Shown: piece after piece, positions 425 to 38,256 of the stretch | Position numbering within the stretch: position 1 is the stretch's first letter | Layout: every line of letters starts with the position of its first letter | Origin: Deltaproteobacteria bacterium | Lineage (GTDB): Bacteria; Myxococcota_A; Polyangia; Haliangiales; Haliangiaceae | Direction of reading: 5' to 3' | DNA length: 38,256 nucleotides | NCBI GenBank assembly: GCA_005887925.1 | Contig: VBLP01000180.1 | Span: 21,796 to 60,051, forward strand | Program-made: the position numbers and the translations under genes | The notes under the pieces: generated by a model | Databases searched by the model: none | Told to the model about the DNA's origin: nothing | What the model saw: the letters and a program-made list of their open reading frames with translations, nothing else

Positions 425-1465
425 TCACCACCTCCTCAACTGCTCGACGCGCGCACCGAGCTCCGAATCGATCTCGCCGCCCAGCGCGAGGTAGCGCTCG
501 AGGAGCTCGCGTGCGAGCGACAGCAGCGCACCAGGCGGCGGCTCCGGCGCGCGCTCCACAGCCGGATCGCGAGGATGAAGGCCCGAACTCGTCATCTCGA
601 AGCTGCCGACCTCCAGCGTCGAGCCATAGCGGTTCTTGTGCGCGCGCAGCTCGCGCCATGCGCCGAGCTCGCCGAGCTCGAACTGGAGCACGACGTCGAC
701 CAAGTGCTCGAGCGTCTTGGGGCCGGCCAGTGCTCCATCCTTCGTGACGTGCCCGATCACCAAGATGGTCAGGTCACGCGACTTGCCGAACGCCGCGAGC
801 CTCGTGGTGCACTCGCGGACCTGCGCGACGGATCCTGCCGTGGAGGCGACGTCGGCGCTCACCAGCGTGTGAATCGAGTCAATGGCGAGGAGCTCGGGTT
901 GGAGCTCATCGGCGTGCGCCAGCACGCTGTCAATGTCGGTCTCGGCCACGATCCGAATCCGGGGGTGCGCGGCATGCACCCGGCGCGCGCGCATCGCCAC
1001 CTGCGCGATCGACTCCTCGCCGGTCGCGTACAGGATGCGCTCGCAGCCCACGGCTGCGAGCAGCTGGGCCAGCAGCGTCGACTTACCGATGCCCGGCTCG
1101 CCGCCGAACAGCACCAGGCTCCCCACCACCAGGCCGCCCCCGAGCACACGATCGAGCGGCTCGATGCCGGTCACCAGCCGGGGCTCGACCGATGCCTCGA
1201 CGTCGGTGATCGGGATCGGAACGGAGCCAGACCGCACTGTCGGCGAGCTTGGCGGCGCGGGGACAGCGGCGAGCCCCGAGCTCGGCGGAGTCGGCGGCGG
1301 CCGGATCGGCTCCGGCTCCGGCTCCAAGGCAACGGGTGAGGCCGCGGACGAGCTCCATGCCTGGCACTTCGGGCAGCGCGCGATCCATCGGCCGTGGGTC
1401 GCCCCGCACGCCTTGCAGACATAGGGCGACGACGAGGACGCTTGTGGTCGCGGGACGGCGGTCAT
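425..1465 (-). CDS. radA: RadA/Sms-like ATPase lacking the Lon-like C-terminal domain
   Basis: This RecA-superfamily ATPase belongs to the RadA (Sms) family, which promotes branch migration and processing of recombination intermediates. Visible motifs in order are an N-terminal C4 zinc finger (CKACG...CPKCQAW, about residues 18-36), a Pro/Glu-rich linker, Walker A GGEPGIGKST (about 120), a Walker B-like LLAIDSIHT segment, and the RadA-specific KNRYGS motif near residue 276. Bacterial RadA is usually about 450-460 residues with a Lon-protease-like domain after KNRFG. Here only about 70 residues follow, ending in a helical tail, so that domain is absent. The start is chosen because ATG overlaps the upstream TGA (TGATG). 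It sits beside a GIY-YIG nuclease in a virus-like operon, so a role in element DNA recombination, replication or possibly packaging is inferred. Confidence 0.9.
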   Translation of the reverse strand: MTAVPRPQASSSSPYVCKACGATHGRWIARCPKCQAWSSSAASPVALEPEPEPIRPPPTPPSSGLAAVPAPPSSPTVRSGSVPIPITDVEASVEPRLVTGIEPLDRVLGGGLVVGSLVLFGGEPGIGKSTLLAQLLAAVGCERILYATGEESIAQVAMRARRVHAAHPRIRIVAETDIDSVLAHADELQPELLAIDSIHTLVSADVASTAGSVAQVRECTTRLAAFGKSRDLTILVIGHVTKDGALAGPKTLEHLVDVVLQFELGELGAWRELRAHKNRYGSTLEVGSFEMTSSGLHPRDPAVERAPEPPPGALLSLARELLERYLALGGEIDSELGARVEQLRRW

Positions 1466-3031: not shown

Positions 3032-3907
3032 TCAAGCGAGCTCGGGCTCGGCGAACACGCTGGCGCACTGCTCCGCGTTGGCGAGAATCGCGGGGAACTC
3101 ATCCCGATACTTCATCGTCTCGGGGTCGAGCTGCACGTGACCGACGGTGGCCGCGAACTCCTGCCAGCTGTGCGGGGCACGCTGCAAGCGCCGAGCGACG
3201 GCCCGCAGCCCTGTGTGGGACAGGCCCGGCAGACCGTGTTGCAGCTTCACCAACGTCCAGTAATTGCGCGTCGACCGCGACCAAGCGGCATCCGCGTTGA
3301 CAGCGACGAGATCGTGCGTCGCCATCACCATGCAGCGCGCGATGAGGTCGATCGTCGCGTCGGCCTGCTCTTGCATCTCGGCCGCGGTGAGCGGCCGCAA
3401 CAGCGCCGACGAGAATCCTCGAACGGTCCGCCCCTTGTACACGATCGCGTGGTCGTCGCCCGGCACGCAGTACGCGCGCAGCTGCGCACCTGTCACGCCG
3501 GAGCGCGCCAGGTCATCGGGGTTGTACAGCTGCGCAATCCCGATCTCGCGGGGATTCCCGTCAGGGCCGTGGGCGGCTGGATGGCCGATCGCGCACGGAT
3601 TGCCGCCGCTCTCGAGATCGATCCACCGGAGCGCGTACGGCAGCTGAATGCGATGCGCGAGGCACCCGGGCGCAAGAAGGGCCGCCCACTGCTCGAGGGT
3701 CGGCGGTGGAACGCTGCTGGTGCTGGTGTCCGTCGCGGTCGGCTCGGTCATACGTCCTCTCCTGGGTCCCCTGAGCACCGGGGGCTCTGTGTAAGCCCTC
3801 GGCGCGATGGCTGCTGCCGCCCGGCGGGGTCGGCCGGCGAGCGCGTAACCGGCCGCACCGGCCACCACGAAGAACAGCAAGATCCCTCCTGATGCCTCTC
3901 TGGCCAT
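3032..3907 (-). CDS. Membrane-anchored lytic transglycosylase-like protein
   Basis: The protein has 291 residues. An N-terminal transmembrane segment (GGILLFFVVAGAAGYALAG, about residues 7-25) is followed by a basic linker. A lysozyme-like SLT domain then carries WIDLESGGNPCAIG near residue 94, where the Glu is the expected catalytic residue, and later GIAQLYNP, the usual G-x-x-Q-x-P signature. Such enzymes cut the peptidoglycan glycan chain to the 1,6-anhydro product. An anchored SLT enzyme in a virion operon would open the cell wall during DNA entry or release, as P7 does in phage PRD1; that comparison is inference. The start is ATG in a TAATG overlap with the upstream gene. A later ATG (MTEPTATD) would remove the membrane anchor and is less likely. 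Confidence 0.8.
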   Translation of the reverse strand: MAREASGGILLFFVVAGAAGYALAGRPRRAAAAIAPRAYTEPPVLRGPRRGRMTEPTATDTSTSSVPPPTLEQWAALLAPGCLAHRIQLPYALRWIDLESGGNPCAIGHPAAHGPDGNPREIGIAQLYNPDDLARSGVTGAQLRAYCVPGDDHAIVYKGRTVRGFSSALLRPLTAAEMQEQADATIDLIARCMVMATHDLVAVNADAAWSRSTRNYWTLVKLQHGLPGLSHTGLRAVARRLQRAPHSWQEFAATVGHVQLDPETMKYRDEFPAILANAEQCASVFAEPELA

Positions 3908-4698
3908 TACATCTTCTCGGGCGCCGCGCTGGGCGCTGCCGGCGTGCTCGGTTCCCCGTCGCTCGGCAAGCTCGGGCCCTCCGGTGAGCTCGGCGGTCCC
4001 GCGGGCGTCGAGCCTTCCGATGGCGCGCTGGCGTGACCGCCAGCGCCGCGCCCGCGAGGGCGACGACGCGATCGACGCGCAGCGTTGGCGTCGTCGGTCT
4101 CCGCGATCGCCACCGTCGGACTCGGCGCCGCCACCGGCGCGGCGACTACCACCGCCGGGGTCGGCGCCGCAAGCGGTGCCGAATCCTGGGCTGGCGGCGG
4201 CGGCGCTGCCGGCGCCGGCAGGAGCCCGGCGAGCACGATCAGGGCACCCTCGGCGAGGGCCGCGTTCGCCGTGTCCTGGATGGCCAGCGTGTTCTCGAGG
4301 TAGCGATCGAGCAGGTGGCCGATCAGCATCATCTGCTCGATGGTGAACGGCGACGCGGCACCCGCGGGACCCGGCGACCGGGGCCGCTCCACGAGCTGCA
4401 CGGTCGGGCCCTGGATTCCGGCGCTCGCCGGATCGGCCCCGGTCGATGCCGAGGCTGTCGCCGGTGATTCCGGTGCCGGCGATCGCCGGTCGAGGATCTG
4501 GACCCTCGCGTCCTGGCGCATCCCTGGCGGCCGGCGCGCGGCCCTCACCTGGGCCTGGGCTTGCGCGCCCGCGGCCGGCGACGCCGACACGTGAGACGTG
4601 GTTGTGTCGGTCGGCTGGCGCTGAGGAACCTGGGTGCTCGAGCGCGGGATGCCGGTTGGGCGTGCCGCAAGGCGTGGAAGAAGTCTGACGTCACTCAT
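3907..4698 (-). CDS. Low-complexity Pro/Ala-rich protein with a central hydrophobic helix
   Basis: The protein has 263 residues, with ATG at 4698; a longer frame upstream would overlap the neighbouring gene. The N-terminal 110 residues are basic, Gln/Arg/Pro-rich and predicted disordered. A conserved-looking helical core (about 120-165) reads FTIEQMMLIGHLLDRYLENT and continues into a hydrophobic stretch ALIVLAGLLPAP. The C-terminal half is Pro/Ala/Ser-rich with an Arg-rich patch (ARRSRRRPRGRGAGG) that could bind nucleic acid. No known family is recognised. The core resembles a short membrane-associated or oligomerising helix, so a minor structural or DNA-contacting role is a guess from context. 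Confidence 0.65.
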   Translation of the reverse strand: MSDVRLLPRLAARPTGIPRSSTQVPQRQPTDTTTSHVSASPAAGAQAQAQVRAARRPPGMRQDARVQILDRRSPAPESPATASASTGADPASAGIQGPTVQLVERPRSPGPAGAASPFTIEQMMLIGHLLDRYLENTLAIQDTANAALAEGALIVLAGLLPAPAAPPPPAQDSAPLAAPTPAVVVAAPVAAPSPTVAIAETDDANAARRSRRRPRGRGAGGHASAPSEGSTPAGPPSSPEGPSLPSDGEPSTPAAPSAAPEKM

Positions 4699-13144: not shown

Positions 13145-14326
13145 TTAGACCGCGGCCGTTCCGAGGACGCCGCACACGAATGGTGCGCCCTCCTGGTTGT
13201 CGCCGACGAACGTCACCACCATGACGAAATCCATTGCCGTCTGGACGGTTTCCATCGACACGAATCCGTCGATCGTCGTGGCCGCAAACATCTCGCCAGG
13301 CACGTCGCCGCTCTGAGCGAACTGCGACCGGTTCCCGACCTTCACGTCGTTCACGATCCAGCTCGACGGCGTTCCGCCGATGATGATCCTCTCCGGCCTG
13401 AAGGCGACCGCCTGAGGTCTCGACGTGATTTGCGCCGACGTATTCGGGAAGATCGCCACGCCCGACGACATCGGCAGCGTGATGCGATCCGCGCGGTGCG
13501 GACCCGGACGCTCGACGAGCTGCGCGCGTCCCGCGATCGGGTGCGACGCGTGCGCGTAGCCGTACGCATACGCGGGGTGCGCCGGATACATCTGTGCCGG
13601 ATACGGACCACCGTGCCCGAAGTGGTGATGGTGGTGGCCGTGGCCGTGATGATGACCGTATCCGTGATGGGGCCCGGGAGGCAGGGCCGCAAGCGCGGCG
13701 TCCGGTGGCCCCGGCGGCGGCGCCGGCGGCGGCGGCATGGGCGGCGGAGGCGACGGCATCACGGTAACCGGCGGCGGTGGCGGTGGCGGCGGCGGCATCG
13801 GCGGCGGCATCGGCATCGGCGGAACTGGCGCCGGCGGCGCGTCGAGGTGTGCGTCGGTCGGGTGGCCGTTGGCGGCGGCCGCCGCCGCATCCTCGGCGCC
13901 GAGGATCTCGAGCGCGCCGAGCGCGACCGGATCCCCCATCACATAGGCGCGATGCTGGAGTTCGGCGCGACGGTGGTCGCGAAACGCGTTCGGCCAGAAC
14001 GAGAGGCCCGGACGCGCCTGGTTGTAGCCGCCGTACGGGTTGCCGTACCCGCCGCCGTACTGGTTGCCGTACCCGCCGCCGTACTGGTTGCCGTAGCTGC
14101 CGTAGCCGTAGCTGCCATAGCCATGCCGTCGGTGATGCCGATGGTGCTGGTGCGGGTAGCCCCGACCATACAGATTGTTATACGGATAGGCTCCTTGGGA
14201 GTATGGATTGTAGTTGTAGCCGGCGCCGACGATGTCGACCATACCTTGTGCTCCGATAATGGATTGCCACTTGCCGATGAGAGCGTGCACCTCATCGGCA
14301 CCGATGTATTGACTGCGGCCCCGCAT
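13145..14326 (-). CDS. Twin structural protein A: N-terminal helix, Pro/His/Tyr-rich middle, conserved C-terminal domain
   Basis: The protein has 393 residues from ATG 14326 (TGATG overlap with its twin upstream). The N-terminus YIGADEVHALIGKWQSIIG matches the twin's YIGAEQARALLGAWHEIVG. The middle is low complexity: Gly/Tyr-rich GNQYGGGYGN repeats, a helical insert (about 125-155), a polyproline run and a His cluster (HHHGHGHHHHH). The last 123 residues (from VERPGPHRAD to the stop) are beta-rich (FRPERIIIGG, SWIVNDVKVGNRSQF, MDFVMVVTFVG) and identical to the twin. The arrangement suggests a globular coat or vertex domain on a flexible arm. No named family is recognised. The domain may be a single jelly roll, which is inference. 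Confidence 0.8.
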   Translation of the reverse strand: MRGRSQYIGADEVHALIGKWQSIIGAQGMVDIVGAGYNYNPYSQGAYPYNNLYGRGYPHQHHRHHRRHGYGSYGYGSYGNQYGGGYGNQYGGGYGNPYGGYNQARPGLSFWPNAFRDHRRAELQHRAYVMGDPVALGALEILGAEDAAAAAANGHPTDAHLDAPPAPVPPMPMPPPMPPPPPPPPPVTVMPSPPPPMPPPPAPPPGPPDAALAALPPGPHHGYGHHHGHGHHHHHFGHGGPYPAQMYPAHPAYAYGYAHASHPIAGRAQLVERPGPHRADRITLPMSSGVAIFPNTSAQITSRPQAVAFRPERIIIGGTPSSWIVNDVKVGNRSQFAQSGDVPGEMFAATTIDGFVSMETVQTAMDFVMVVTFVGDNQEGAPFVCGVLGTAAV

Positions 14327-21717: not shown

Positions 21718-21977
21718 AAGTTCCTCGGGAAGTATTCCCCTGTACTTAATGGAACTCAAATTTAGATGCATGAATATCCTGTCACTGAGCTCGCCAGAGA
21801 CTCCGCCAGCCGCTGCATGATGCGAACTCGTTGCAGGAGCTGATCTGGCGAGGTGCAGCTTAAAGGTTGCATATGGGGTGTGTAGGAAGTGTTGTCGCCA
21901 TTGATCGGGTGTGCGGGCTTAGCACAAAGCCGGCGCAATCCAGGATTCTTCGAGGCTCCACAAGTAGTCTCTCGTGG

Positions 21978-23284: not shown

Positions 23285-23365
23285 ATGAAAGCGTCACTGA
23301 TTGGTTTAGTGGTGGCCGGTGGTTTCGGCGATGCCTTGCAGCAATTTGCTGCAGGAATTGCTTGA
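23285..23365 (+). CDS. Tiny hydrophobic ORF (26 aa) with strong ribosome binding site
   Basis: ATG 23285 is preceded by GAGGAGAATCG, a strong Shine-Dalgarno at good spacing. The peptide is MKASLIGLVVAGG, FGDALQQFAAGIA and then stop. It is aliphatic with a double-glycine in the middle. A 17-bp palindrome lies within it and a GC-rich hairpin follows its stop. It could be a leader peptide controlling the ABC operon, a small membrane peptide, or chance. The preceding stretch 23161-23284 shows no gene and no certain promoter. Confidence 0.4.
   Translation: MKASLIGLVVAGGFGDALQQFAAGIA
23337..23353. promoter_or_regulatory. 17-bp palindrome inside the tiny ORF
   Basis: TGCAGCAATTTGCTGCA is a perfect inverted repeat of 8-bp arms around one central base. 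It lies about 190 bp before the permease start. It could be an operator; it does not match the Crp or FNR consensus as I know them. Confidence 0.45.
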
Positions 23366-23366
23366 C

Positions 23367-23388
23367 CGCGGCCTTTATTTCGGCCGCG
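23367..23388 (+). promoter_or_regulatory. GC-rich hairpin between the tiny ORFs
   Basis: CGCGGCC-TTTATTTC-GGCCGCG gives a 7-bp perfect stem with an 8-nt loop right after the tiny ORF's stop. There is no T-run behind it, so it is more likely an attenuator-like or mRNA-stabilising element than a classical terminator. Confidence 0.45.
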
Positions 23389-23439
23389 TTCGAGACCGAG
23401 ACTCCGATCGGCAGTCTAGGCAGCAGAGGAGGCTTCGAC

Positions 23440-23532
23440 ATGTCGCTGTGGAAGTTTCAATTGAGCTGCTCGTATGTCGTTTCTGTGTCCGCAATGGGTC
23501 AGTCGGCCTTGAAAATATCGAGCATGCCATGA
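23440..23532 (+). CDS. Tiny ORF (30 aa) overlapping the permease start
   Basis: ATG 23440 has GAGGAGG seven bases upstream. The frame encodes MSLWKFQLSCSYVVSVSAMG and QSALKISSMP and ends in a TGA that overlaps the permease ATG (ATGA at 23529-23532). The same overlap style is used by the next two genes, so this frame probably couples ribosomes onto the permease gene, which has no Shine-Dalgarno of its own. The product has no recognised family and may matter only as a translated leader. Confidence 0.5.
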   Translation: MSLWKFQLSCSYVVSVSAMGQSALKISSMP

Positions 23533-24338
23533 CCACCGCGATAGTTTCCCCGGTTCCCGAGATACGACGTACTCGCCCGACTTGGTTTCCGCATTGGTGC
23601 CTGCCGCTCGCGACAGGCCTACTGCTCCTCGCGGCATGGTGGCTAGCATCGTCGGCCAAGGTGTTTCCTACCGGCACGGTCCCCTCGCCGGCAGATGTCG
23701 CCAGCGCATTCGCGACCGAAGCCGACTCCGGTCGGTTACTCGAAAACGTCATCGCGTCTTTGTATCGCGTCGCCTGGGGCTATCTATCCGCAACGATAGC
23801 TGCGGTCCCGCTCGGTCTCGTGATCGGCCGCTCGGCGTCGACCCGCGCTGCGTTGCTGCCCTGGATCAACTTCTTCCGGAGCCTGTCACCGATCGCGTGG
23901 ATCCCATTCGCGATCATCTGGTTCGGGATCGGCGATCCCCCCGCAATCTTCTTGATCTTCCTGGCGACGTTCTTCCAGATCGTGCTGGCAACCGCGGCTG
24001 CAACCGGCTCGGTGCCGAGTGTCTACTACCGCGTAGCGCGTGAGATGGAGCTCGGCCCAGCGGCGGTGCTGTTCAGGGTCACATTCCCGGCGATCCTGCC
24101 GCAACTCGTGATCGCGTTGCGCGTCGCCGCCGGCGTCGCCTGGATGGTCGTTGTTGCCGCCGAGATGATCGCCGTGCGTAGTGGGCTCGGTTTCCTGATC
24201 GTCGACGCCCGCAACGGTCTGCGCATGGATCTCGTGGTGTTCGGCATGCTCGTGATCGGGCTGATCGGGATGGCTCTCGACATCGTATTCGCTCGGCTCG
24301 CAAAGGTCGGCGGCGTGCGTTGGGGGTTCGAGCGATGA
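23529..24338 (+). CDS. ABC transporter permease (SsuC/TauC/NrtB type)
   Basis: The protein has 269 residues; ATG 23529 lies in an ATGA overlap with the tiny ORF, while a longer frame has an N-terminus unlike the family. About six transmembrane segments are visible, starting with LPLATGLLLLAAWWLASSAK. The inner-membrane permease loop that contacts the ATPase reads EMELGPAAVLFRVTFPAILP, the EAA motif. FFRSLSPIAWIPFAIIWFGIG is typical of the NitT/TauT family, which imports nitrate, sulfonates, taurine or thiamine precursors. It forms an operon with the ATPase and binding protein that follow, each overlapping by 3-4 bp. The substrate cannot be read from sequence. Confidence 0.93.
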   Translation: MTTAIVSPVPEIRRTRPTWFPHWCLPLATGLLLLAAWWLASSAKVFPTGTVPSPADVASAFATEADSGRLLENVIASLYRVAWGYLSATIAAVPLGLVIGRSASTRAALLPWINFFRSLSPIAWIPFAIIWFGIGDPPAIFLIFLATFFQIVLATAAATGSVPSVYYRVAREMELGPAAVLFRVTFPAILPQLVIALRVAAGVAWMVVVAAEMIAVRSGLGFLIVDARNGLRMDLVVFGMLVIGLIGMALDIVFARLAKVGGVRWGFER

Positions 24339-25048
24339 CCGAGGTCGTGCTCGAAGCCAGCGGTGTCGGGTTCAGCTATGGCGGCTTGGTCGTAATCGAA
24401 CGCCTCGATCTCGCGGTCGCGAAGGGCGAGTTCGTCGCCTGCGTCGGGCCATCGGGTTGCGGCAAGACGACCTTGCTCGCACTCCTTGGCGGGCATATCG
24501 CGCCCGCGCGAGGCACGCTGCAGCGTCGCGGCCGCAGCCGCACGATCTACCAGGACGGCGGACTATTCCCGTGGCTGACCGTTCACGACAATGTCGCGTG
24601 TGGCTTGCCGCCCAGACTCGACGGCGGAGCGCGGGAGCACAAGGTCGCCGAGTGGCTCGCCGTGACCAGGCTCACCGAGTTCGCAGATCTCTATCCACAT
24701 CAGCTGTCTGGAGGAATGCGGCAACGAGTCGAGCTAGCTCGTGCGCTCGCCGCTGAATCGGACACCCTGCTACTCGACGAGCCCATGGGCTCTCTGGATT
24801 ACCAGACCCGGTTGCGCATGCGACGCGAACTCGTCGCGACGCTTCGCGAACGCCCGCGCACCGTGGTGTTCGTCACTCACGATATAGAAGAGGCTGTCCA
24901 GCTCGGCGATCGCGTGATCGTCCTGGGACCCCGACCGACTAGCGTTCGCCGCGTGATCACACTACCGCCAGGTCGTCCGCGGTTACCGACGGCGCCGGGA
25001 GTCCCCGACGCCGAGCAGGCCATCATGGAGGAGCTCGGGTTGACATGA
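24335..25048 (+). CDS. ABC transporter ATPase (SsuB/TauB/NrtD type)
   Basis: The protein has 237 residues. Motifs are Walker A GPSGCGKTT (about 42-50), the Q-loop at YQDGG (about 75), the signature LSGGMRQRVELARAL (about 127), Walker B LLLDEPMGSLD (about 152) and the H-loop VFVTHDIEEA (about 183). All nucleotide-binding and hydrolysis residues are present. It energises import by the permease encoded just upstream (ATGA overlap). The length is slightly short compared with the usual 250-260 residues, but no motif is missing. Confidence 0.95.
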   Translation: MTEVVLEASGVGFSYGGLVVIERLDLAVAKGEFVACVGPSGCGKTTLLALLGGHIAPARGTLQRRGRSRTIYQDGGLFPWLTVHDNVACGLPPRLDGGAREHKVAEWLAVTRLTEFADLYPHQLSGGMRQRVELARALAAESDTLLLDEPMGSLDYQTRLRMRRELVATLRERPRTVVFVTHDIEEAVQLGDRVIVLGPRPTSVRRVITLPPGRPRLPTAPGVPDAEQAIMEELGLT

Positions 25049-26055
25049 CCAGCAAGACCAGAGTCGTCGCAATCGCGATCGTCGTTCTCACCGCGCTCAC
25101 GGTCTTGCACTGGCGACCGTGGCAAGGCACCGCACCGGCGGTAGCAGCCGAGCTCGCAGTCGGTTATCTGCCGGTCACCTGTCACCTGACGTGCCCGGTG
25201 ACCGATTTCGCGAGCAAGACAACGACGTCGTCGACGCGATTCGTGTCGCAGCGCTACAGCGACTTCCCGACGGTGGCCGAGGCACTCAAGGCGCGCAAGA
25301 TCCAGGCAACGTTCTTGCTCGCGCCGCTCGCGATGCTGCTGCGCGAACAAGGCGTGCCGATCAAGATCGTCTATCTCGGTCACCGCGACGGCTCGACGGT
25401 CATCGTGCCGAGATCCTCGAACGCCAGATCGCTGCGCGACCTCAAGGGCAAGACGTTCGCGCGGCCCAGCAGGTACTCGAATCAGTACCTCGTGATCACC
25501 AAGCTGATGGAGGACGAGGGCATGCAATCTGACGACATCAAATTTGTCGACATGGCGCCGCCCGACATGCCGAGTGCGCTGGCCGCCGGCGCAATCGATG
25601 CCTACTTCGTCGGAGAGCCGCATGCCGCTAAGGCCGAGCTCGCCGGCACCGGCCGCGTCCTGTATCACGCCAAGGACATCTGGCCTAACTTCATCTCGTG
25701 TGTACTCGTTGTCCGCGATGAGCTGATCCGCGAACATCCAGAAATCGTCCGCGACCTCGTTCGCGGGATCGCCGAGAGCGGCGAGTGGGTGGAACGCAAC
25801 CGACTAGCCGCGGCGAAGCTTGCCGCCAGGACGGAATACTATAATCAAGATCAGAAGCTACTGACTTTCGTCCTGACGCAGCCGCCCGACCGAGTGTCGT
25901 ATCGGCAACTCACTCCGAGCGACGAGGACCTGCGGTCGATCATGCACTACGCGCTCAAGGCCAAGATCTTGCGGCGCGCCATCGACCTCAGCGATCTCAT
26001 CGATCGTCGATTCATTCCGGAAACCATACATCCCGCCGAGATCCATGGAGAGTGA
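25045..26055 (+). CDS. ABC transporter periplasmic substrate-binding protein (NMT1/SsuA/NrtA-like)
   Basis: The protein has 336 residues, with ATG overlapping the ATPase stop (ATGA). The N-terminal hydrophobic segment VVAIAIVVLTALTVL (about 7-21) is a signal peptide or anchor; no lipobox cysteine is present. The mature start AELAVGYLPVTCHLTCPVTD matches the NitT/TauT binding protein opening (xGYxPxxxxxP) but carries an unusual C-H-L-T-C pair. Later YSDFPTVAEALKARKIQATF, LAPLAMLLREQGVPIKIVYL and LAAGAIDAYFVGEPHAAKAE follow the two-lobed periplasmic fold. The ligand is a small anion or heterocycle by family. It could be sulfonate, which would fit the sulfur-inserting PKS next door, but this is speculation. 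Confidence 0.9.
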   Translation: MTSKTRVVAIAIVVLTALTVLHWRPWQGTAPAVAAELAVGYLPVTCHLTCPVTDFASKTTTSSTRFVSQRYSDFPTVAEALKARKIQATFLLAPLAMLLREQGVPIKIVYLGHRDGSTVIVPRSSNARSLRDLKGKTFARPSRYSNQYLVITKLMEDEGMQSDDIKFVDMAPPDMPSALAAGAIDAYFVGEPHAAKAELAGTGRVLYHAKDIWPNFISCVLVVRDELIREHPEIVRDLVRGIAESGEWVERNRLAAAKLAARTEYYNQDQKLLTFVLTQPPDRVSYRQLTPSDEDLRSIMHYALKAKILRRAIDLSDLIDRRFIPETIHPAEIHGE

Positions 26056-26059
26056 TGAC

Positions 26060-26812
26060 ATGACGGCTCGTGCGCAGGTGCTGGGGCGCCGTCCGGGAGC
26101 TCCGATATCGCTCGGGGATGCCGGCGGTGCGATGCTGTTGGGCCATGAGGAGCTGCGATTCGACCATCGTGCGTTCTACAAGCAGTTATGTGCTTCCATG
26201 CCGAATCGCTCCGCATCGCGACGACTGATCGCGAACGAAGCACTCTACACGTGTGGTACTGAAAATTATAACATCTATTTCGTCGAGAGCGGCTATCTGA
26301 AGGTATCTCTGTTATCGCAGAGCGCACGCCAGTGCCTGCTCGACATCTGCGCACCGGGAGACATGGTCGGCGAATCTTGCCTGTTATGTGCAGAACGGCT
26401 CGAGACCGTCATTGCGATGACTCCGTGTGCCGTGCGTGCGATTCCTCGCGCGGAGTTTCTCGAGACGGTCTCCAGGCACAAGCTCGTGGAGGCCAGCCTG
26501 CAGTACCTCACGGCGAAGTTGCTAGAGCAGCAGCAGATCGTCTCGCACTTCGTCACCGCGGACAGCGAAGGCCGCCTGGCCGCGACGCTGCTGCGCCTCG
26601 CACGCAAGCTCGGAAAGCCGCATCAGGGCCGACTGCTGATCGACGAGAAGATAACTCAAGAGGAGCTCGCCGAGATAGTCGGGACCACGCGGTCCCGGGT
26701 CGGCTACTTCCTCAAGCGATTTCGGGCCACAGGCCTGATCGAGCAGCCGTCCCCGACAACGCTGCTGATCAACGAGAGCCGGCTCGACGAGTACGTTCAG
26801 TCCTGCTTGTAG
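26060..26812 (+). CDS. Crp/Fnr-family transcription regulator
   Basis: The protein has 250 residues from ATG 26060 with GGAGAG seven bases upstream; an in-frame ATG at 26045 lies inside the preceding gene. The N-terminal cyclic-nucleotide-type beta barrel (about 45-150) has YFVESGYLKVSLL and DICAPGDMVGESCLL. A long dimer helix and a C-terminal winged helix follow (ITQEELAEIVGTTRSRVGYF about 203-222). Several cysteines (for example CAERLE, QCLLDICAPG) are present but no FNR-type N-terminal cluster. It is four bases behind the transporter operon and probably regulates it. Its last 44 bp overlap, tail to tail, the end of the PKS gene, so convergent transcription could interfere. Confidence 0.92.
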   Translation: MTARAQVLGRRPGAPISLGDAGGAMLLGHEELRFDHRAFYKQLCASMPNRSASRRLIANEALYTCGTENYNIYFVESGYLKVSLLSQSARQCLLDICAPGDMVGESCLLCAERLETVIAMTPCAVRAIPRAEFLETVSRHKLVEASLQYLTAKLLEQQQIVSHFVTADSEGRLAATLLRLARKLGKPHQGRLLIDEKITQEELAEIVGTTRSRVGYFLKRFRATGLIEQPSPTTLLINESRLDEYVQSCL

Positions 26813-29800
26813 TCACGATCTCGTCGAGGAACGCCGCGAGTTCCGCATTGACCGCGTCGGAGTCAGTGACGCAGACGAAGTGACCGGACCTGGGTAAGTC
26901 AACGTAGCGTGCGTCGGGGATCGCGCCGTGCAGGAAGTGTCCGGTTTTGACGCCGACGACCGAGTCGTGCCGGCCGTGCAGGATCAGGGTCGGCGCCGAG
27001 ATCTCATTGAGCCGCGGCGCGAGCGCCGGCTCCTTTGCGAACAGGTCGAGATAACCCAGGCCGGTTTGCGGATCCATGCTCTCGCAGCGCAGCAGAAACT
27101 GGGTGAACCGGTCACGATCCTCGACAGCGCAGGGCACGCCGCTTCCCGTCGCGATCGCATCGAAGTCCTCGGCGATCACCTGTTCGAGGCGGTCGATCTG
27201 GCCTTTGCGGTTGGCGAACCGGTACGAGCCGCCGATCAGGCTAAGTGACCGCGTCAGCTCGGGAAACCGAAGCGCGAAGTACTGCGCGAAGATCGCGCCG
27301 ACAGATGCACCACCGATGTGGATCGGCTCGTCGATGCCGATCGCCGCGAGCACGTGCCGCTGCAGACTTGCGATGCCCTCGAGGCTGAGGCTCCCGATCA
27401 CCCGCGTCCGACCGACTCCAGGCTGGTGGATGACGATGATCCGGAAGCGATCCGAGAGCGTCGCGAACTGGGGTGCGAAGATCCCGGCGCCGATGTTAAA
27501 GGGCTGCATCAGCAGCAGCGTCGGACCAGACCCTGCGCTGAACACCTCGACCTCGCCGCCGGCTACGGTGACCATCCGACACTCGATCGCGGGGACAAGC
27601 TCGCGGAGCACGTCGAGGTTCTGGTTGGCCGGTGCGTAGTCCGTGCTGGTCAGCGCCGTGCCGAGCTCGTGCAGCTGGCGCGAGAACCACTCTTCGGGCA
27701 CGGTGCGCGCGCCGCGTGTCCCGACCAATAGCGCGCCGGCGCGCTCGGCTGCCTCGACAGTCAATCCCACCGGAACGGCGAGGCGACAGCAGGTCCGCAG
27801 CTCCGGGTACGCGTCGCCGGCGAGGTGCGGGCCGCCGCGCACGCCGGTGAGGTCGAAGACCTGGGTCAGGAACTCCTCGATCGGGCGCCCCGCGAAGCCG
27901 GGGACGCGATCGACGTCGACGAGCACGCAGTGACCGCCGACGGGCGCGACCACCGGCAACCCCGCATCCGCGAGGCGCTTCGCCAGCGCATGGACGGCGG
28001 CCATGCGCTGGCGGACCTGCCCGAGCACGGCGTCGAGATCGCCTAGCGCGACCTGGAGTAGTCGACGGCTCGCCAGGCCAACATCGGTACCGCGCAGCGC
28101 AGCCTCCTCCCGCAGCCGGTCGTCGAGCTCCGGGATCCGGCTCGCAACCAGGCCGCCGAAGTTCACTCCCCAGTCCTTTGACAAGCTGAACGTTGCGGCA
28201 TCGCCGAGCGCAAGGAGTTCGCGACCGACGTCCCACACGTCGCGTCTGGCGTGATCGGCGATGGACACCGCGTTCTCGACCAGGCGTGTCGCGTCGAGCA
28301 CCAGAGGTACCCCCCGGGCCCGGGTGGTCGCCGCGACGTGCTGAAGCTCCGGAAGCGAAAGCGGCCGTCCCCCGGCGGCGTTGCACGAGAGCTCCACGAC
28401 GACGAACGACACGCCCCTGGCGTCGCGCGCGAGCGCATCCTCGAGCACGGTCCCCTCATCGAGACCGGGCAGCGCAACAGGGGTGAACCGTTGGTCGGCG
28501 AGGTTGAACAACCAGGTCGGAAACAGGCCGTTGTGCAGAACGGTACCGCGCCGGCCTGGCCAGCTGCGGCACAGCAGCGCCTCGGCAGTGCGCCCACTCG
28601 GCGTCGAAAGCACGAGGGTGAACGGCAACCATGGCTGGTCGATCGTGTCCGAGGCGCCGGCGGCGGCCTGCTCTAGCCCGCGCATCCGCTCGGCGATCCA
28701 CGGATCGTCCCGTTCGGCCCACGAGTCGGTGAGCAGATCGATCGAGACATCGCGGTGCGCAAGCTGGAGCGGGCTACGTGCCAAAGGCTCGGGACTCCCG
28801 ATCATCACCAGGACGTCAGCTACACTGGTCGGACGATCGGCCGGCTGGCAAAGGTAGATCGGCAGCTCGTCGGGCCGGAACTTGCTCTTGAACTGATAGT
28901 TGCCCCGACCGAGCATACCTGAGGAGGACAGCTCGTCGAGCGCGCGTTCTACCTCGGGCGAGGTGTTCGGTGAGTCGCAGACCTTGACGCCGAAGGTGGC
29001 GCCAAAGCTGAAGATGGTGACTCCCTCGGTGCGCAGGGCCTCGATGATCTGGACGATCGAGTATTCGAGTCCGCCTGCCGGCATGTCGTCACCGTAGAAC
29101 TCGGCGTCGAGCAGGTAGCCCAGCTCCGACGACATTCGCGTGACGATCACCGCGGCGCGCAGGACGCCATCTACCGAGGTGAGGAACACCCGATGATCCG
29201 CTGGCAGGGCACCTCCGCGCAGTTCCTCCCGGATCGTGTACGCGTACGGGTTGACGACCCGCTTGCCCGCCGCCCAGCGCTCGACTAGCTCGACAAGCTG
29301 GGCATCGACGGCGGGATCGCTGCCCGTCGAGTACTCGGTGACTGCGACGTCCCCGGCGCGCGTGAAGCGGCGCACCATGCCGCGCAGCCGCTGCAGCTTG
29401 GGCCCGTCGAGCGTGAACGCTGCGAGGTCCTCGAGCTGTTGGACTACGCCGAACGGAGTCGCGGTAAATGCCAAGGCCCCGACCTGCTCCAGCCGCACGG
29501 GGGACAGCACGGTGAGGCGCAGGCGATGCGTCTGGACGTACGAGATGAGCTCCTCGAGGATGCCCACGAACCCGTCGGACGGCCCTGTGTAGCTCCAGAC
29601 CAGCAGCCGGTCGCCGCTGCGCGAGAACTCGAGGTAGCCGCGCTCGTCGGCGGCGACGAACACCAGCGGCGCGATGTCGCGGCCGGCGAGGCCGCTCTCG
29701 ACACCGTGCTGCCGTGCCAGGTCGCAGAGCAGGCTCGCCAGCCGGGATCCGGCTGGCACCTGGCGCTTGGGAACGATCGTTGCCCCGCTCGCCGCGGCTG

Positions 29801-32422
29801 CCGGCACCTCGTCCCCGCTCGGGCGCAGCTGGCGTACGGCCTCGATGCCGTAGAGCGCGCACAACTGCGCCGTCAGAGCCGAAACGTCGGGGTGGTCGAA
29901 CAGCAAGGTCTTCGGGAGCGTTCCCAGCCCACGCTCGAGCTCGCCGACGACGCGCAGCATGTCGATAGAGGTGAAGCCGCTGTCGAGGAACGAGCGCCGC
30001 GGATCGATCAGGCGTCGCAGCACGGCCCCAATGAGCGACGTGACCGCGGCCTCCGCCGACGGTTTGGCCTCCGGCGCCTCGCTGAGAAACGCGACGAGTT
30101 CGTCGATTGTGTCATGATCGTACAGCGTCGGCGCCTGGACCTCGATGCGGAGCGCGGCACCGAGCCGGTCCGCGAGGTCCATCGCGAAGATCGAGTCGAG
30201 TCCGAGGTCCTCGAACGGCTGATCCCCGGGGATGCCGGTCGGGTCGACGGCCAAGAGCTCGCCGAGCTGAGCACGGACGAGGTCCGCGATCCGCGAGCTA
30301 GTGGCCGATCGGTGCACGCTGGGCGCAGCGCTTGTTAACCAGTGGCGGGTCCGCGCGAGCGGGAAGATCGGGAGCGACACGCGGAATGGCAGTGTTGACC
30401 AGTGGGCCCGCCAGTCGACGGGGTCGCCGCGCAGCCAGGCTGTGGCCAACGCGTCGGCGTCGCCGTGAAGTCCGCCCGGCGTAGGCTTGCGCAGGGCGGC
30501 GACAAGTTGCTCGCGGGAGCGAGTGACGACGACAAATCGCTCGCGCTGATCGTCACGCCCGAGCTGCAGGACGTATGCGACAGCGTGCAGCTCGAGCTCG
30601 GGCTCGGTTTCCAGGCGCGTGGCGAGCGCGGTCGCGTACGCGGCGAGCCTCGGTGCGTCGGGCGCGGACAGCGGAAACACGAGCGGACCTCGTGCGACGC
30701 GCGGCGCAACGGGCAGCGCTGCCTCTACGACAACGTGTGCGTTCGCGCCGCCGAAGCCGAACGAGCTCACACCGGCGCGGCGCCGCGCCGCCGGCGGCCA
30801 GGCGCACAGCCGGTCGCTGATCCGCAGCGGCGTGCCGTCGAGCTCGATGTGCGGATTGAGCGCCTCCAGGTGGAGGTGCGGCGGTAGCACGCCGTGCCGG
30901 ATCGCGAGCACGGTCTTGAGCAGGCCGGCGATTCCTGCCGCGGACTCCAGGTGGCCGATATTTGTCTTCACCGAGCCGATCGCGATCGAACCCGGCGCAC
31001 CACCGGAACCGAGCGCCAGCTTGATACCTTCGATCTCAACGGGGTCGCCCAGCCGCGTGCCGGTGCCGTGGGCCTCGATATAGGCGACGGTGGTGATACT
31101 AACGCCGGCGTCGGCATATGCTGCGCGCAGAACCGCTGCCTGCGCGCGAGGGTTGGGGGCAGTGAGCGAGGCAGCGCGGCCACCGTGGTTCACCGCGCTG
31201 CCCTTGATGATCGCGTGGATGTGATCAGCGTCCGCGAGCGCGCGATCGAGTCGCTTCAGGACAACTGCGCCGACGCCCTCGCCTCGAACGTAGCCGCTCG
31301 CGCTACGATCGAACGTCCGGCACCGGCCGTCCGAGCTGAGCATGCCGGACTCGGCGAAGGCGACGAACAGCCCCGGCGTCAGCGTCACGTTGACGCCCCC
31401 TGCGATGGCGACGTCGCATTCCCCCGTGCGGAGGGCGCGCACTGCGCGGTGCACCGCGACCAGCGAGCTGGAGCACGCTGTGTCGATCGCCTCGCTTGGG
31501 CCACACAGGTGGAAGCGATACGACACCCGATTCGCGAGGACGGCGTGCGCGATCCCCGTCGCGGTGTGGGCCTGCACCGGCACGCCGTGGCGGGTCAGGA
31601 GGTCATCATAGTCCGAGGTCGAAACGCCTGCGAACACCCCGGTCGCGGTCCCAGCAAGGTCAGCGGCGCGGTACCCGGCATCGGCGATCGCCGACCACAC
31701 GGTCTGCAGAAATAGCCGCTGCTGAGGATCCATCAGCGCCGCCTCGCGCGGGGCAATGCCGAAGAGGGAGGCATCAAACGCTGCGATGTCGTCGAGGAAG
31801 CCACCGTGCATGTTCCGCGTGCGAGGCTCGGCTAGCAGATCCTCGCGGTCGGCGGGCACCGCGCGGACTAGGTGATCTCCGGCGATCAAGTGGGCCCAGA
31901 ACTCGTCGAGATCGGCCGAGCCCGGGAGCTGGCCGGCGATACCGATCACCGCAACATCGCTGGTCGCTTGCGGAGCACTCGCGCCGCCGTCGCGCGGCAC
32001 GAGCGGCTCGGGCACAGCGCGTTCGATGTGGGCGATCAACTCTGCGAGCGTCGGACACTCGAACAACACCGTGACGCGGAGCGCGAGGTCATAGGTCTCG
32101 TTGATGCGCGTGATCAGCTCGGTCATCGAGATCGAGTCGAAGCCGAGATCGAGCAGCGCGGTATCGAGGTCGACTTCGGCGGACTCGACGAGCAGGAACT
32201 CTGCGGCCAAGGCGCGGAGGCGATCTCCGACCGAGCCGGCAGGAATAGCGGGCGCAGCATGCACGGCGGGTGCGGCTCGCTCCGCGGGCATGGCATGCTC
32301 GGCCGGCGTGGCATGCTCGGCCGGCGTGGCATGCTCGGCCGGCATGGCATGTTCGGCCGGGGCGACTCGCCTTGTGGACGCGAGTGGTCCGGCGAACCCC
32401 GCTCGTTCGGCGGTGGCCTCGA

Positions 32423-32426
<4 letters not shown>
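26769..32426 (-). CDS. Trans-AT PKS, terminal subunit: ACP-KS-ACP-ACP-DUF-SH(PLP lyase)-TE
   Basis: The protein has 1885 residues from GTG 32426, which overlaps the upstream PKS stop (GTGA). Order: a hexapeptide-repeat linker (23-45); ACP (Ser98, GFDSIS); KS (about 155-575; Cys318 in DTACSSS, His453 in EAHGTGT, His492 in NIGHLE); a post-KS linker without AT; ACP (Ser745, GLDSIF); ACP (Ser820, GFTSID, the usual Asp before Ser replaced by Thr); a DUF (about 890-1195) resembling DUF2156/LPG-synthase GNAT domains; a PLP beta-eliminating lyase (about 1215-1570; Lys1417 in SLSKDWGVNFGG); and a thioesterase (about 1620-1870; Ser1708 in GGASVG). ACP-DUF-SH-TE is the leinamycin-family ending, in which the SH domain cleaves a cysteine-derived C-S bond to leave a sulfur group on the chain, and the TE releases it. 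Extension needs a separate acyltransferase, not seen in this window. Confidence 0.95.
32292..32360 (-). repeat. 18-bp tandem repeat coding for PAEHA(M/T) hexapeptides
   Basis: Four near-identical 18-bp units (GGCATGCTCGGCCGGCGT and variants) encode PAEHAM/PAEHAT. More degenerate units (PAERAA, PAVHAA, PAIPAG) follow in the protein up to about residue 63. They form the flexible linker between the subunit's start and its first ACP. Copy number is probably variable. Confidence 0.85.
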
Positions 32427-37225
<4,799 letters not shown>

Positions 37226-38256
37226 GGCGGCGGGCGGAATAATGGACCGTAGCGCAAGCTAGCGTCGTCGAACGAGCGGTACAGCGCCGCGATGTCCTCG
37301 GCCCGCGTGCACTGAACGCGGACCGCGGCCAGGTCGATGCGTGGGGCCTCGGTCGCGTGCGCCTCGATCGTTCCGGTGCAGTGCGGCTGCTCCGCGTCGC
37401 CGACCCGGAAGGTGCCATCTTCGACCTCGATGTGGAGCGGGGTCGGCCGATCGACGACCAGCGGCCGGAGCCAGCGCAGGCGGCCTAGCCGCAGCGGGAG
37501 CTGCAGCCCGCCGCGCTGCGCGGCGGCGACGACGAACTCGACGGAAGCCGCACCGGCGAGCATGCGACGGCCGTCGACCTGGTGATCCGCGATCAATGGC
37601 TCGTCGGGGTTGAGGGTGCGGCCGGAAGACTGGACGGGTGGCGCGGCGGTGACCCAGTGGCGCGCGTTGCTGAACGGGTAGGTCGGCAGGGCGACGCGGC
37701 GCACCGGACGGCCGCCAAAGTGTGCGTGCCACTCGAGTGCACGGCCCTCGACGTATGCTGCCGTTGACTGCACAAGATCCGTCCCCGGATCAGCGCCCGG
37801 CGAGGCCGGCAGATCTGTTGCGACTGAACCGACGCCGGCTCGCGAGCAGCCCGCGACGATGGTCCCGGCGGCCAGCGCGAGGAGCTTCCCTCGAAGCTCG
37901 ACGACATCATTGGCGATCACGGCGGCGCGCGCCGCGAGGTGGCGCCGCCCAGTGGCGAGCGTGAACGCTACATCGGCGAGCACGTGGTGCGGCGTCAGCG
38001 CGTCGGCGAGCCGGCGGAGGTGCGCGTCGAGCTCGGCCTCGGTGCGCGCGGACACCGGGACGATCTCCGGACGCGCCGCGAGCGAACGCAACGGCTCCGG
38101 CGGCGGCTCCCCAACCACGACGTGGCAATTCGTCCCGCTGAACCCGAAGCTCGAGACGCCTGCGATCCGCCCTGCACGACCGGGAGCCCAGTCGACCAGA
38201 TGGTCGGTCATGAAGAAGGGACTGGCCCCGAAGTCGATCCTGGAGTTCGCGGCGGT

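Follow-up and report, generated by a model that had tools for sequence, protein, structure and literature searches.

A leinamycin-type terminal polyketide synthase subunit in a Myxococcota genome, with one HMG synthase probably serving both branching modules

What kind of assembly line ends in the polyketide synthase (PKS) subunit that is encoded in a 38,256-nucleotide stretch of DNA (the window) from a Myxococcota genome, and how would that line build its beta-branches? The answer that we favour, and hold to be likely, is that the window carries the terminal subunit of a leinamycin-type (LNM-type) trans-AT NRPS-PKS, in which one HMG synthase (HMGS) probably serves both branching modules. A sulfur-installing, pharmacologically notable assembly line would then be found outside the Actinomycetota, with a near-complete cluster available for comparison.

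The terminal module and its relatives

The ORF and Pfam analyses identified a reverse-strand frame of 1926 amino acids (26769-32549) that encodes the end of a KR followed by ACP-KS-ACP-ACP-DUF-SH-TE, the arrangement of the LNM-family terminal module. It represents the C-terminal part of an LnmJ-like PKS gene and was collinear with the LnmJ-like proteins of Saccharothrix and Ardenticatenaceae. An earlier note, made from the sequence alone, had read an ACP-DUF-SH-TE ending on a subunit spanning 26769-32426; the ending was borne out by the Pfam domains and by the GASVG motif in the TE, and the subunit is real, although its frame is slightly longer. Within this frame Pfam recovered PP-binding domains in three stretches, the KS, LPG_synthase_C (residues 963-1234, E 3e-17), Beta_elim_lyase (residues 1313-1536, E 1e-20) and an alpha/beta hydrolase (residues 1689-1895). 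The same scan detected no AT domain on the subunit, and neither KR nor DH in the terminal module.

The domains, all on the reverse strand, are arranged as follows. The penultimate-module ACP (32025-32225; PF00550, residues 109-175) precedes the terminal-module KS (30480-31961; PF00109/PF02801), which has the Cys and both His motifs (DTACSSS, EAHGTGT, KTNIGHL). Two tandem ACPs come next; the first (30072-30317) clustered with the LNM-type first tandem ACPs and the second (29805-30047) with the second ones (100/100), in both cases on the basis of few columns. The DUF (28830-29744; PF09924) is LPG_synthase_C-like; addition of thiocysteine has been proposed as its role in the literature. The SH domain (27750-28799) is a predicted PLP-dependent thiocysteine lyase, as judged from phmmer, identity, tree and fold. 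Its predicted PLP-binding lysine, Lys1458 (28176-28178), sits in SLSKDWGVNFGG and did not vary among the 24 rows compared, from which L042 and L047 were excluded; it is the residue that the earlier note had called Lys1417, here counted from an earlier start. The terminal TE (26805-27629; PF00561) has Ser, Asp and His motifs, of which the nucleophile motif GASVG begins at residue 1747.

The leinamycin-type assignment was then supported at several levels. The SH domain matched PDB entry 9CEN, the guangnanmycin thiocysteine lyase by its PDB title, in sequence (phmmer E 3e-80, 51% identity) and in fold (rmsd 1.8), and fell inside a DUF-SH clade of 26 rows (100/100) that includes 9CEN and the row of the leinamycin producer Streptomyces sp. 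CB01635 and stands apart from the tyrosine phenol-lyase-like enzymes. The DUF scored 277-369 bits against the DUFs of 25 GTDB loci and 63 bits against the Pfam LPG synthase model, and phmmer gave no match between it and the LPG synthase of the same genome; by these scores, in the absence of a tree with LPG synthases, it is nearer to the family DUFs than to LPG synthases. KS-ACP-ACP-DUF-SH-TE was encoded in a single frame in 23 of the 25 loci (L042 is cut before the TE and L047 is broken). In the module-8 tree the nearest relative was actinobacterial, a sister from a Streptosporangiales MAG with 57% identity. The Pfam names alone would allow for a chance fusion, in which an ordinary PLP lyase and an LPG synthase were joined to a PKS unrelated to leinamycin; this reading is refuted by the trees, the bit scores, the architecture and the cluster content, and we regard it as practically ruled out. 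A fusion with an unrelated aminotransferase or LPG synthase was likewise excluded by the SH tree, the DUF bit scores and phmmer.

By analogy with relatives that have been characterised, the first tandem ACP would receive the beta-branch, as does the first tandem ACP of the terminal module in weishanmycin biosynthesis (PMC7618002, available in part). Dehydration of the branch would yield a Michael acceptor, to which the DUF would add L-thiocysteine; the PLP-dependent SH domain would cleave the C-S bond to leave a hydropersulfide (there are no enzyme activity data), and the TE would release and cyclise the chain from the second ACP.

The remainder of the cluster and its host

Most of an LNM-type cluster was recovered from the same genome, on contig C406 and on contig C693, which contains the window. 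It comprises an AT-oxidoreductase (AT-OR), a Cy-Cy-A-PCP-Ox-KS-ACP-KS hybrid, a modular ECH, a discrete ACP (C74934-75173), a cysteine-less KS, ECH1 and a single HMG synthase (C69847-71121). The LnmI-like protein on C406 contains two Condensation/Cy domains, an A, a PCP and a nitroreductase-type Ox; the line opens with an NRPS portion that feeds the PKS and includes heterocyclisation and oxidase domains. The Ardenticatenaceae LnmI spans both contigs (residues 17-3160 cover C406 and 3395-4301 cover C693) and therefore the contig ends lie within one LnmI-like gene, of which some 235 residues, or about 0.7 kb of DNA, are absent in between. The discrete ACP is located upstream of a KS in which Ser replaces the active-site Cys, the LnmG-like AT-OR on C406 aligned to the CB01635 protein in two pieces (54% and 60%), and the seven KS domains agree in number and order with those of CB01635 and the Ardenticatenaceae MAG. 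Judged by predicted domains, the terminal module, the upstream line and a number of accessory genes correspond to those of LNM-type clusters domain by domain.

The PKS had been described as AT-less, and indeed no AT domain was found by Pfam in the PKS ORFs that were scanned. A discrete AT, an HMGS cassette and an MT had been suggested as targets for a search of the flanking genome; the AT-OR, the HMGS and ECH1 were found, but an MT was not: Pfam scans of chosen cluster ORFs, which were not exhaustive, recovered no methyltransferase family, and no GnmP-like enzyme was found. Among the 26 AT matches in the genome, contigs C276, C346, C676 and C406 were considered for a discrete AT; the candidate on C346 belongs to an AT-DH module, and the frames on C276 and C676 gave an AT domain only, with no link to the cluster. 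A CRP-family regulator (26045-26812, forward strand; Pfam) is convergent with the PKS. Its homologues gave tblastn matches in 13 of the 25 GTDB loci, including the LNM producer CB01635 (47% identity to L045), which makes a link to LNM-type loci suggestive, CRP being a broad family.

The earlier note's suspicion of damage upstream proved justified. The middle part of the same PKS (32423-37225, reverse strand; DH end-KR-ACP-KS-KR start by Pfam) lies in another frame, as judged against homologues, and the upstream part (37186-38256, reverse strand; KS C-terminus and DH start by Pfam) lies in a third, which terminates at a run of Ns adjoining the window edge. With the one-frame homologue from Saccharothrix ST-888 (7435 aa) as the reference, the frame was seen to change on contig C693 near C60641, over the N gap C60052-60059 and within the intervals C59308-59023 and C54224-54014, the last two corresponding to about 37228-37513 and 32219-32429 of the window. 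The DUF-SH-TE frame is unbroken. The three frame changes and the gap in the PKS, together with one frame change in the gene of the cysteine-less KS and one across an N gap in the LnmI-like end, could point to a decaying pseudogene copy. However, the frames flanking the PKS breaks are open for hundreds of codons, the catalytic motifs are intact, and the draft assembly contains N gaps, one of them near a break; we therefore judge decay to be unlikely. Given the frame breaks and N gaps, the activity of this copy of the cluster remains unproven.

A contig from an actinobacterial contaminant, or a chimera in a Myxococcota bin, has to be considered as well. A search of 282 genomes of the phylum with the DUF alone found it in none of the 281 others (weak or fragmentary DUF-SH could have been missed), the nearest relative is actinobacterial and, as a weak sign, GC3 is 0.81-0.84 in the PKS frames while 0.90 is reached by 20 of the 37 ORFs that were called on four other contigs. 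Against this, positions 593-1157 of the window, which lie within a RadA-like ATPase gene and are joined to the PKS without a gap, have matches with 66-74% DNA identity in 12 of the 14 other genomes drawn from the genus, in agreement with the myxobacterial host that had been proposed, and the identity of module 8 to its nearest actinobacterial counterpart is only 57%. A foreign contig thus seems quite improbable. The genes to the left of the cluster in the window have a GC3 near 0.85, GC3 being a weak sign of foreign origin.

The family itself is broader than the LnmJ, GnmT and WsmR proteins to which the earlier note had confined the arrangement, since 109 DUF-SH PKS clusters, three groups of which fall outside the LNM type, have been counted already (PMC8479088, in the part available). 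The Myxococcota do not stand alone outside the actinobacteria either, as a Chloroflexota (Ardenticatenaceae) MAG also carries an LNM-type cluster. Among the listed matches by title and abstract there was no myxobacterial or Chloroflexota leinamycin-type cluster; a myxobacterial DUF-SH could still have been reported before.

HMG synthases and the acceptor carrier protein

The HMGS tree resolved two clades at 100/100. An HMGS downstream of the PKS (module-8 type, LnmM/WsmS clade) was present in 23 of the 25 loci scored, one further locus being cut, and the synthase of the window's cluster lies outside that clade. It is the sole HMGS of the cluster and by the tree is WsmD-like, i.e. of the module-5 type, pairing with the Ardenticatenaceae enzyme (91/76) and not with that of the sister. 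No module-8-type HMGS was found downstream of the PKS or among the HMGS genes of this incomplete genome. The Streptosporangiales MAG sister has one HMGS gene in its assembled genome, of the WsmD clade, so that both lack the synthase found in 23 of 25 loci. Because the module-8-type HMGS was not found, we would file the cluster, on present sequence evidence, as a variant and not as a standard member of the LNM-type assembly lines. The one other HMGS gene of the genome, on contig C52, is only a distant relative and was rejected as a cluster part: it scored 117 bits against the cluster HMGS (self-score 957) and lies next to Lnb-like and BipA-like genes.

The acceptor carrier protein differs at one position. 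In the comparison of first tandem ACPs, with residue 39 numbered after PMC7618002 by motif spacing, the equivalent of WsmR ACP7 Arg39 is an Ala codon, GCG (30183-30185, reverse strand). Arg occupies this position in 24 of 26 ACPs and Ala in two, those of the window and of the sister L025, which are sisters of each other. According to the accessible part of PMC7618002, Arg39 in the first tandem ACP is 100% conserved across 29 PKSs; the window ACP departs from this. The remaining four acceptor residues (Asp35, Asp/Glu41, Tyr60 and Asp63) are retained in window and sister, and the module-5 ACPs have Ala at the residue-39 equivalent (5/5). The same source, as far as available, reports that in vitro the R39A substitution in weishanmycin WsmR ACP7 abolishes the action of the module-8 synthase WsmS and that WsmD is inactive on WsmR ACP7; dual use would consequently need a change of specificity. 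Neither the missing module-8 HMG synthase nor the change of Arg39 to Ala was part of the earlier note. The association between Arg39 and the HMGS rests on a single evolutionary event, shared by two sister loci that both come from MAGs.

As only a module-5-type HMGS was found and Arg39 was lost, we infer that a single WsmD-like synthase probably serves both branching modules, and the new element of the proposed mechanism is that this enzyme would build both beta-branches. The fuller scenario, to which we give about even credence, is that a lineage comprising one myxobacterium and the Streptosporangiales MAG dropped the module-8 HMGS and Arg39 and gained the module-5-type Ala, with one WsmD-like HMGS building both branches and still feeding the addition and cleavage of thiocysteine.

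The same observations could also fit a module 8 that no longer forms a beta-branch, in which case the SH domain would act on a different, unbranched substrate or sulfur would no longer be installed. The absence of a detected module-8-type HMGS and the Ala in place of Arg39 are compatible with this, as is the S. argillaceus lrgKLM1 deletion (the module-8 HMGS and two genes), which led to compounds without the C3 branch (PMC9396626, available in part). Yet the four other acceptor residues are kept in both ACPs, as are the invariant residues of DUF and SH in the window protein and in the sister L025, and the module has no KR or DH in the Pfam scan, so that without a branch there would be no obvious Michael acceptor; the loss of branching is accordingly possible but doubtful. 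It is also conceivable that this is an ordinary two-HMGS leinamycin-type cluster whose second synthase lies on unassembled DNA, given that the MAG is 81% complete, that C406 begins at or inside the cluster and that 23 of 25 relatives have a second HMGS. Against it speak the assembled usual site downstream of the PKS, which holds the convergent CRP gene, the single HMGS gene of the sister genome, and the loss of Arg39 in exactly these two loci, and we consider an overlooked synthase rather unlikely. On its left side C406 breaks off at a contig end, beyond which a second HMGS could lie.

The two loci amount to a natural experiment on how HMG synthases and ACPs recognise each other, in that the substitution that kills WsmS branching in vitro occurs in just those loci in which no WsmS-type synthase was found. 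The choice of carrier proteins by trans-acting enzymes thereby becomes testable, which is useful for the engineering of trans-AT synthases and of sulfur chemistry.

Comparison with known systems

The weishanmycin (wsm) and largimycin (lrg) systems, as covered by the available parts of PMC7618002 and PMC9396626, share with the window's cluster the KS-ACP-ACP-DUF-SH-TE ending, an in-cis ECH in the module that lies three modules further upstream, a donor ACP, a decarboxylating KS and ECH1. They differ in having a second HMGS for module 8 (WsmS, LrgM1), whereas none was found here, and WsmR ACP7 has Arg39 where the first tandem ACP of the window has Ala. The leinamycin type of Streptomyces sp. CB01635 (L045, L092-L094) has in common the LnmI/LnmJ split, in which one protein closes with a KS and the next opens with a DH, the AT-OR, the seven KS domains and the CRP regulator; it has a module-6 MT motif, an LnmM-type HMGS and no module-5 ECH hit, and the window's cluster is the reverse in all three. 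The product would differ from those of the leinamycin and weishanmycin types; it would, for one, be without the C-methyl group of module 6. With the guangnanmycin lyase 9CEN the likeness extends to the catalytic lysine region, but the activity of the window SH domain is inferred.

The Streptosporangiales MAG Dino_bin2 (L025, L102-L103), besides its single WsmD-clade HMGS and Ala39, resembles the window's cluster in the absence of a module-6 MT motif, but carries genes for a P450, a cupin and an AlkZ-like DNA glycosylase close by, none of which was found by tblastn on C693 or C406. The non-leinamycin DUF-SH PKSs share the DUF-SH didomain with the window; in the part of PMC7618002 that was available their modules have one ACP and no TE, whereas the module in the window has two ACPs and a TE.

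Identity of the terminal subunit

The terminal frame of the LnmJ-like PKS (window 26769-32549, minus strand) is an ORF of 1926 residues, on which Pfam models recovered three ACP stretches, a KS, an LPG_synthase_C-like domain (DUF), a beta-eliminating lyase (SH, a predicted PLP-dependent thiocysteine lyase) and an alpha/beta hydrolase, in the order (KR end)-ACP-KS-ACP-ACP-DUF-SH-TE. The motifs found included the KS Cys/His, the ACP Ser and the TE Ser/Asp/His; the PLP lysine is expected to be residue 1458, and the nucleophile motif of the TE starts at residue 1747. The best PDB match of the SH in a sequence search was 9CEN (E 3e-80; 51% aligned identity), entitled, according to Foldseek, the thiocysteine lyase (SH) domain of the guangnanmycin A pathway, with tyrosine phenol-lyase far behind (8e-22). 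The predicted DUF-SH model (mean pLDDT 86.4, pTM 0.58) matched 9CEN with a Foldseek rmsd of 1.8. For the DUF a family-profile search of the PDB gave no close solved relative, the best matches being acid-pH and LpiA-type proteins (E 5e-13 and weaker).

A scan of the GTDB r220 species genomes, queried with an alignment of the window and 9CEN sequences (pattern-based and not exhaustive), yielded 25 loci: 24 actinobacterial and one from an Ardenticatenaceae (Chloroflexota) MAG. We built an SH tree of 37 rows: 24 of these loci (the broken L047 was omitted), 9CEN, the window, and 11 lyase-like proteins from relatives among the myxobacteria. All 26 SH rows, the window's among them, fell on one side of a split with 100/100 support and the lyase-like proteins on the other; many forks within the SH clade remained unresolved. 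This split and the identity to 9CEN bear out the earlier note's proposal that the SH belongs to the leinamycin family.

Cluster content and related lines

The contig carrying the window (C693, 77804 bases) has N runs at 21757-21795, 60052-60059 and 76240-76276, the first two of which adjoin the window edges (just before window 1 and just past window 38256). The LnmJ-like PKS has its first part, with the domains DH-ACP-KR-KS-ECH-ACP-KS, to the right of the window. Also found there were three small genes on the plus strand and genes for an acyl-CoA dehydrogenase, an HMG synthase (HMGS), an alpha/beta hydrolase, a type II thioesterase, a KS with Ser at the active-site Cys position (taken for a decarboxylating KS), a discrete 79-residue ACP (taken for the donor ACP) and the end of the LnmI-like protein (KR-ACP-KS). 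A bacterial globin gene (L011:11296-11745, minus strand; C71296-71748) adjoins the HMGS gene and recurs in the Ardenticatenaceae and Streptosporangiales clusters. A second contig of the same genome, C406, has at its left end the gene for an ECH1 that shares 44% identity with that of the Ardenticatenaceae MAG, and carries further an AT-oxidoreductase (AT-OR) gene with an N run inside it, and Cy-Cy-A-PCP-Ox-KS-ACP-KS. Residues 17-3160 of the Ardenticatenaceae LnmI map on C406 and residues 3395-4301 on C693, with which the protein of Streptomyces sp. CB01635 agrees; both contig ends therefore lie inside one gene, with some 235-242 residues between them. Counted from the CRP gene (window 26045-26812; homologues in 13 of the 25 loci) to the ends, the cluster spans about 44 kb over the two contigs. 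Next to the CRP gene lie plus-strand ABC importer genes (window 23319-26055: permease, ATPase and NMT1-like binding protein), which could supply a sulfur source or have no relation to the cluster.

The locus L045 and its flanks in CB01635, a leinamycin-producing strain according to PMC8479088, resemble the window's line: the LnmI-like protein ends in a KS, the LnmJ-like protein starts with a DH, and there are an AT-OR and seven KSs. The Ardenticatenaceae MAG has the same split, AT-OR and seven KSs, plus a modular ECH. In the window's line the modular ECH lies three modules before the last, as in WsmR module 5 of weishanmycin (PMC7618002). The Ardenticatenaceae cluster (L095-L097 and L024), with two HMGSs and a globin, is a second non-actinobacterial case. 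The flanking genes suggested by the earlier note were recovered in part: the discrete AT-OR on C406, an HMGS and ECH1 are there, but a motif scan found no methyltransferase motif between the KR and ACP of module 6. The same scan found it in 20 of the 25 loci; it is absent from L025, L040 and L042, and L046 and L047, the remaining two negatives, are cut short in that region. The Streptosporangiales sister cluster carries, beside a cupin gene and between the PKS and AT-OR genes, an AlkZ-like DNA glycosylase gene (L103:7675-8964, minus strand), possibly for self-resistance to a DNA-damaging product; none was found on C693 or C406.

The damage noted earlier upstream of the DUF-SH-TE is real at the level of the assembly: comparison with the Saccharothrix protein shows three frame changes in the PKS gene in addition to the N gap at C60052-60059, near which one of the three lies. 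The gene of the cysteine-less KS shows one frame change against the Ardenticatenaceae protein, and the LnmI-like end one across its N gap. To either side of the PKS breaks the frames remain open and the catalytic motifs are retained; assembly errors of a draft MAG with N gaps are the simpler reading, and recent decay of the cluster is not excluded.

HMG synthase and acceptor ACP of module 8

In weishanmycin biosynthesis WsmD acts on the module-5 ACP only, and WsmS, which groups with LnmM, only on the first of the two tandem ACPs in module 8 (PMC7618002). Our HMGS tree (29 rows) fell into two clades with 100/100 support: a large one of 23 rows, each downstream of the PKS, from 23 of the 25 loci including CB01635, and a small one of six rows, comprising those of the window's genome, Ardenticatenaceae (first), Saccharothrix (first), L038's genome (one), L025 and CB01635 (one). 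The CB01635 row, from another contig of that genome (L083), is a distant HMGS on a long branch of this WsmD-like clade, and may belong to an unrelated pathway. The loci without a large-clade HMGS are L025, of the Streptosporangiales cluster, and L042, whose contig stops 14 bases beyond the match. Genome-wide searches, confined to the window's genome and seven others, gave one more, only distantly related HMGS gene in the former (on contig C52) and a single one in L025's genome, of unknown completeness. In the module-8 tree (24 rows; L042 and L047 omitted) the window and L025 are sisters (100/100; 57% identity). Within the weakly supported order of the small HMGS clade the window's HMGS pairs with Ardenticatenaceae (91/76) and not with L025, with a long-branch warning.

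According to the same source (PMC7618002), five residues of WsmR ACP7 are important for branching, Arg39 is fully conserved in 29 PKSs, and the R39A variant gives no HMG product with WsmS. Positions were assigned via motif spacing in the first tandem ACPs of the window and the 25 loci: Asp35, Tyr60 and Asp/Glu41 occur in all 26, Asp63 in 25 and Arg39 in 24, the exceptions to the last being the window and L025, both with Ala (codon GCG). Two independent assemblies agree on this residue and a sequencing error is therefore unlikely; on the tree the change is one event. All five module-5 ACPs examined have Ala at the equivalent position. Because no module-8-type HMGS was found and Arg39 is replaced, we class the cluster as a leinamycin-type line of a new, variant form.

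Most likely, the WsmD-like HMGS, the discrete ACP, the cysteine-less KS and ECH1 would introduce branches on both the module-5 ACP and the first tandem ACP; that one HMGS serves both modules is an inference. The modular ECH would decarboxylate the first branch only, and the second would retain its carboxylate, as proposed for weishanmycin module 8, take thiocysteine via the DUF and be left with a hydropersulfide by the SH. The parts are present in the sequence; the order of steps is borrowed from the cited wsm, gnm and lnm work. Branching at module 8 may instead simply have been lost, which has a precedent since compounds that lack the C3 branch are obtained when lrgKLM1 is removed (PMC9396626). 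Such a loss predicts drift of the other acceptor residues and would leave the DUF without a Michael acceptor, but two sequences are insufficient to decide between the readings.

Host and origin

The MYXO-CTERM model matched in 12 of 13 genomes, including the window's own, and in none of 14 controls, and window 593-1157, inside a RadA-like ATPase gene, has matches in 12 of the 14 other genomes drawn from the genus (66-74% DNA identity); on these grounds the host is assigned to the Myxococcota. The ATPase gene and the DUF-SH share one gap-free 38 kb stretch. The earlier note's call of a leinamycin-type terminal module in Myxococcota is upheld. No earlier report of a myxobacterial DUF-SH was found in literature listings, which did not cover a list of 109 known clusters, and a prior report is not excluded.

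Among 56 genomes (own and 55 relatives) the DUF-SH-TE query matched the DUF in the own genome only, other matches being confined to the lyase or hydrolase part, and at E 1e-10 the DUF was absent from the 281 others of 282 genomes of the phylum, an absence consistent with horizontal acquisition. The nearest relative shares 57% over module 8, too little for a donor to be named. Base composition contributes little: the PKS frames have a GC3 of 0.81-0.84 and the window's genes left of the PKS one near 0.85, and among 37 ORFs from four other contigs 20 reach at least 0.90. Elsewhere in the window, a short stretch (13690-13890) recurs at the DNA level, among the matches listed, at many sites of the own genome and of the genus genomes drawn, and is perhaps a widespread domain or repeat.
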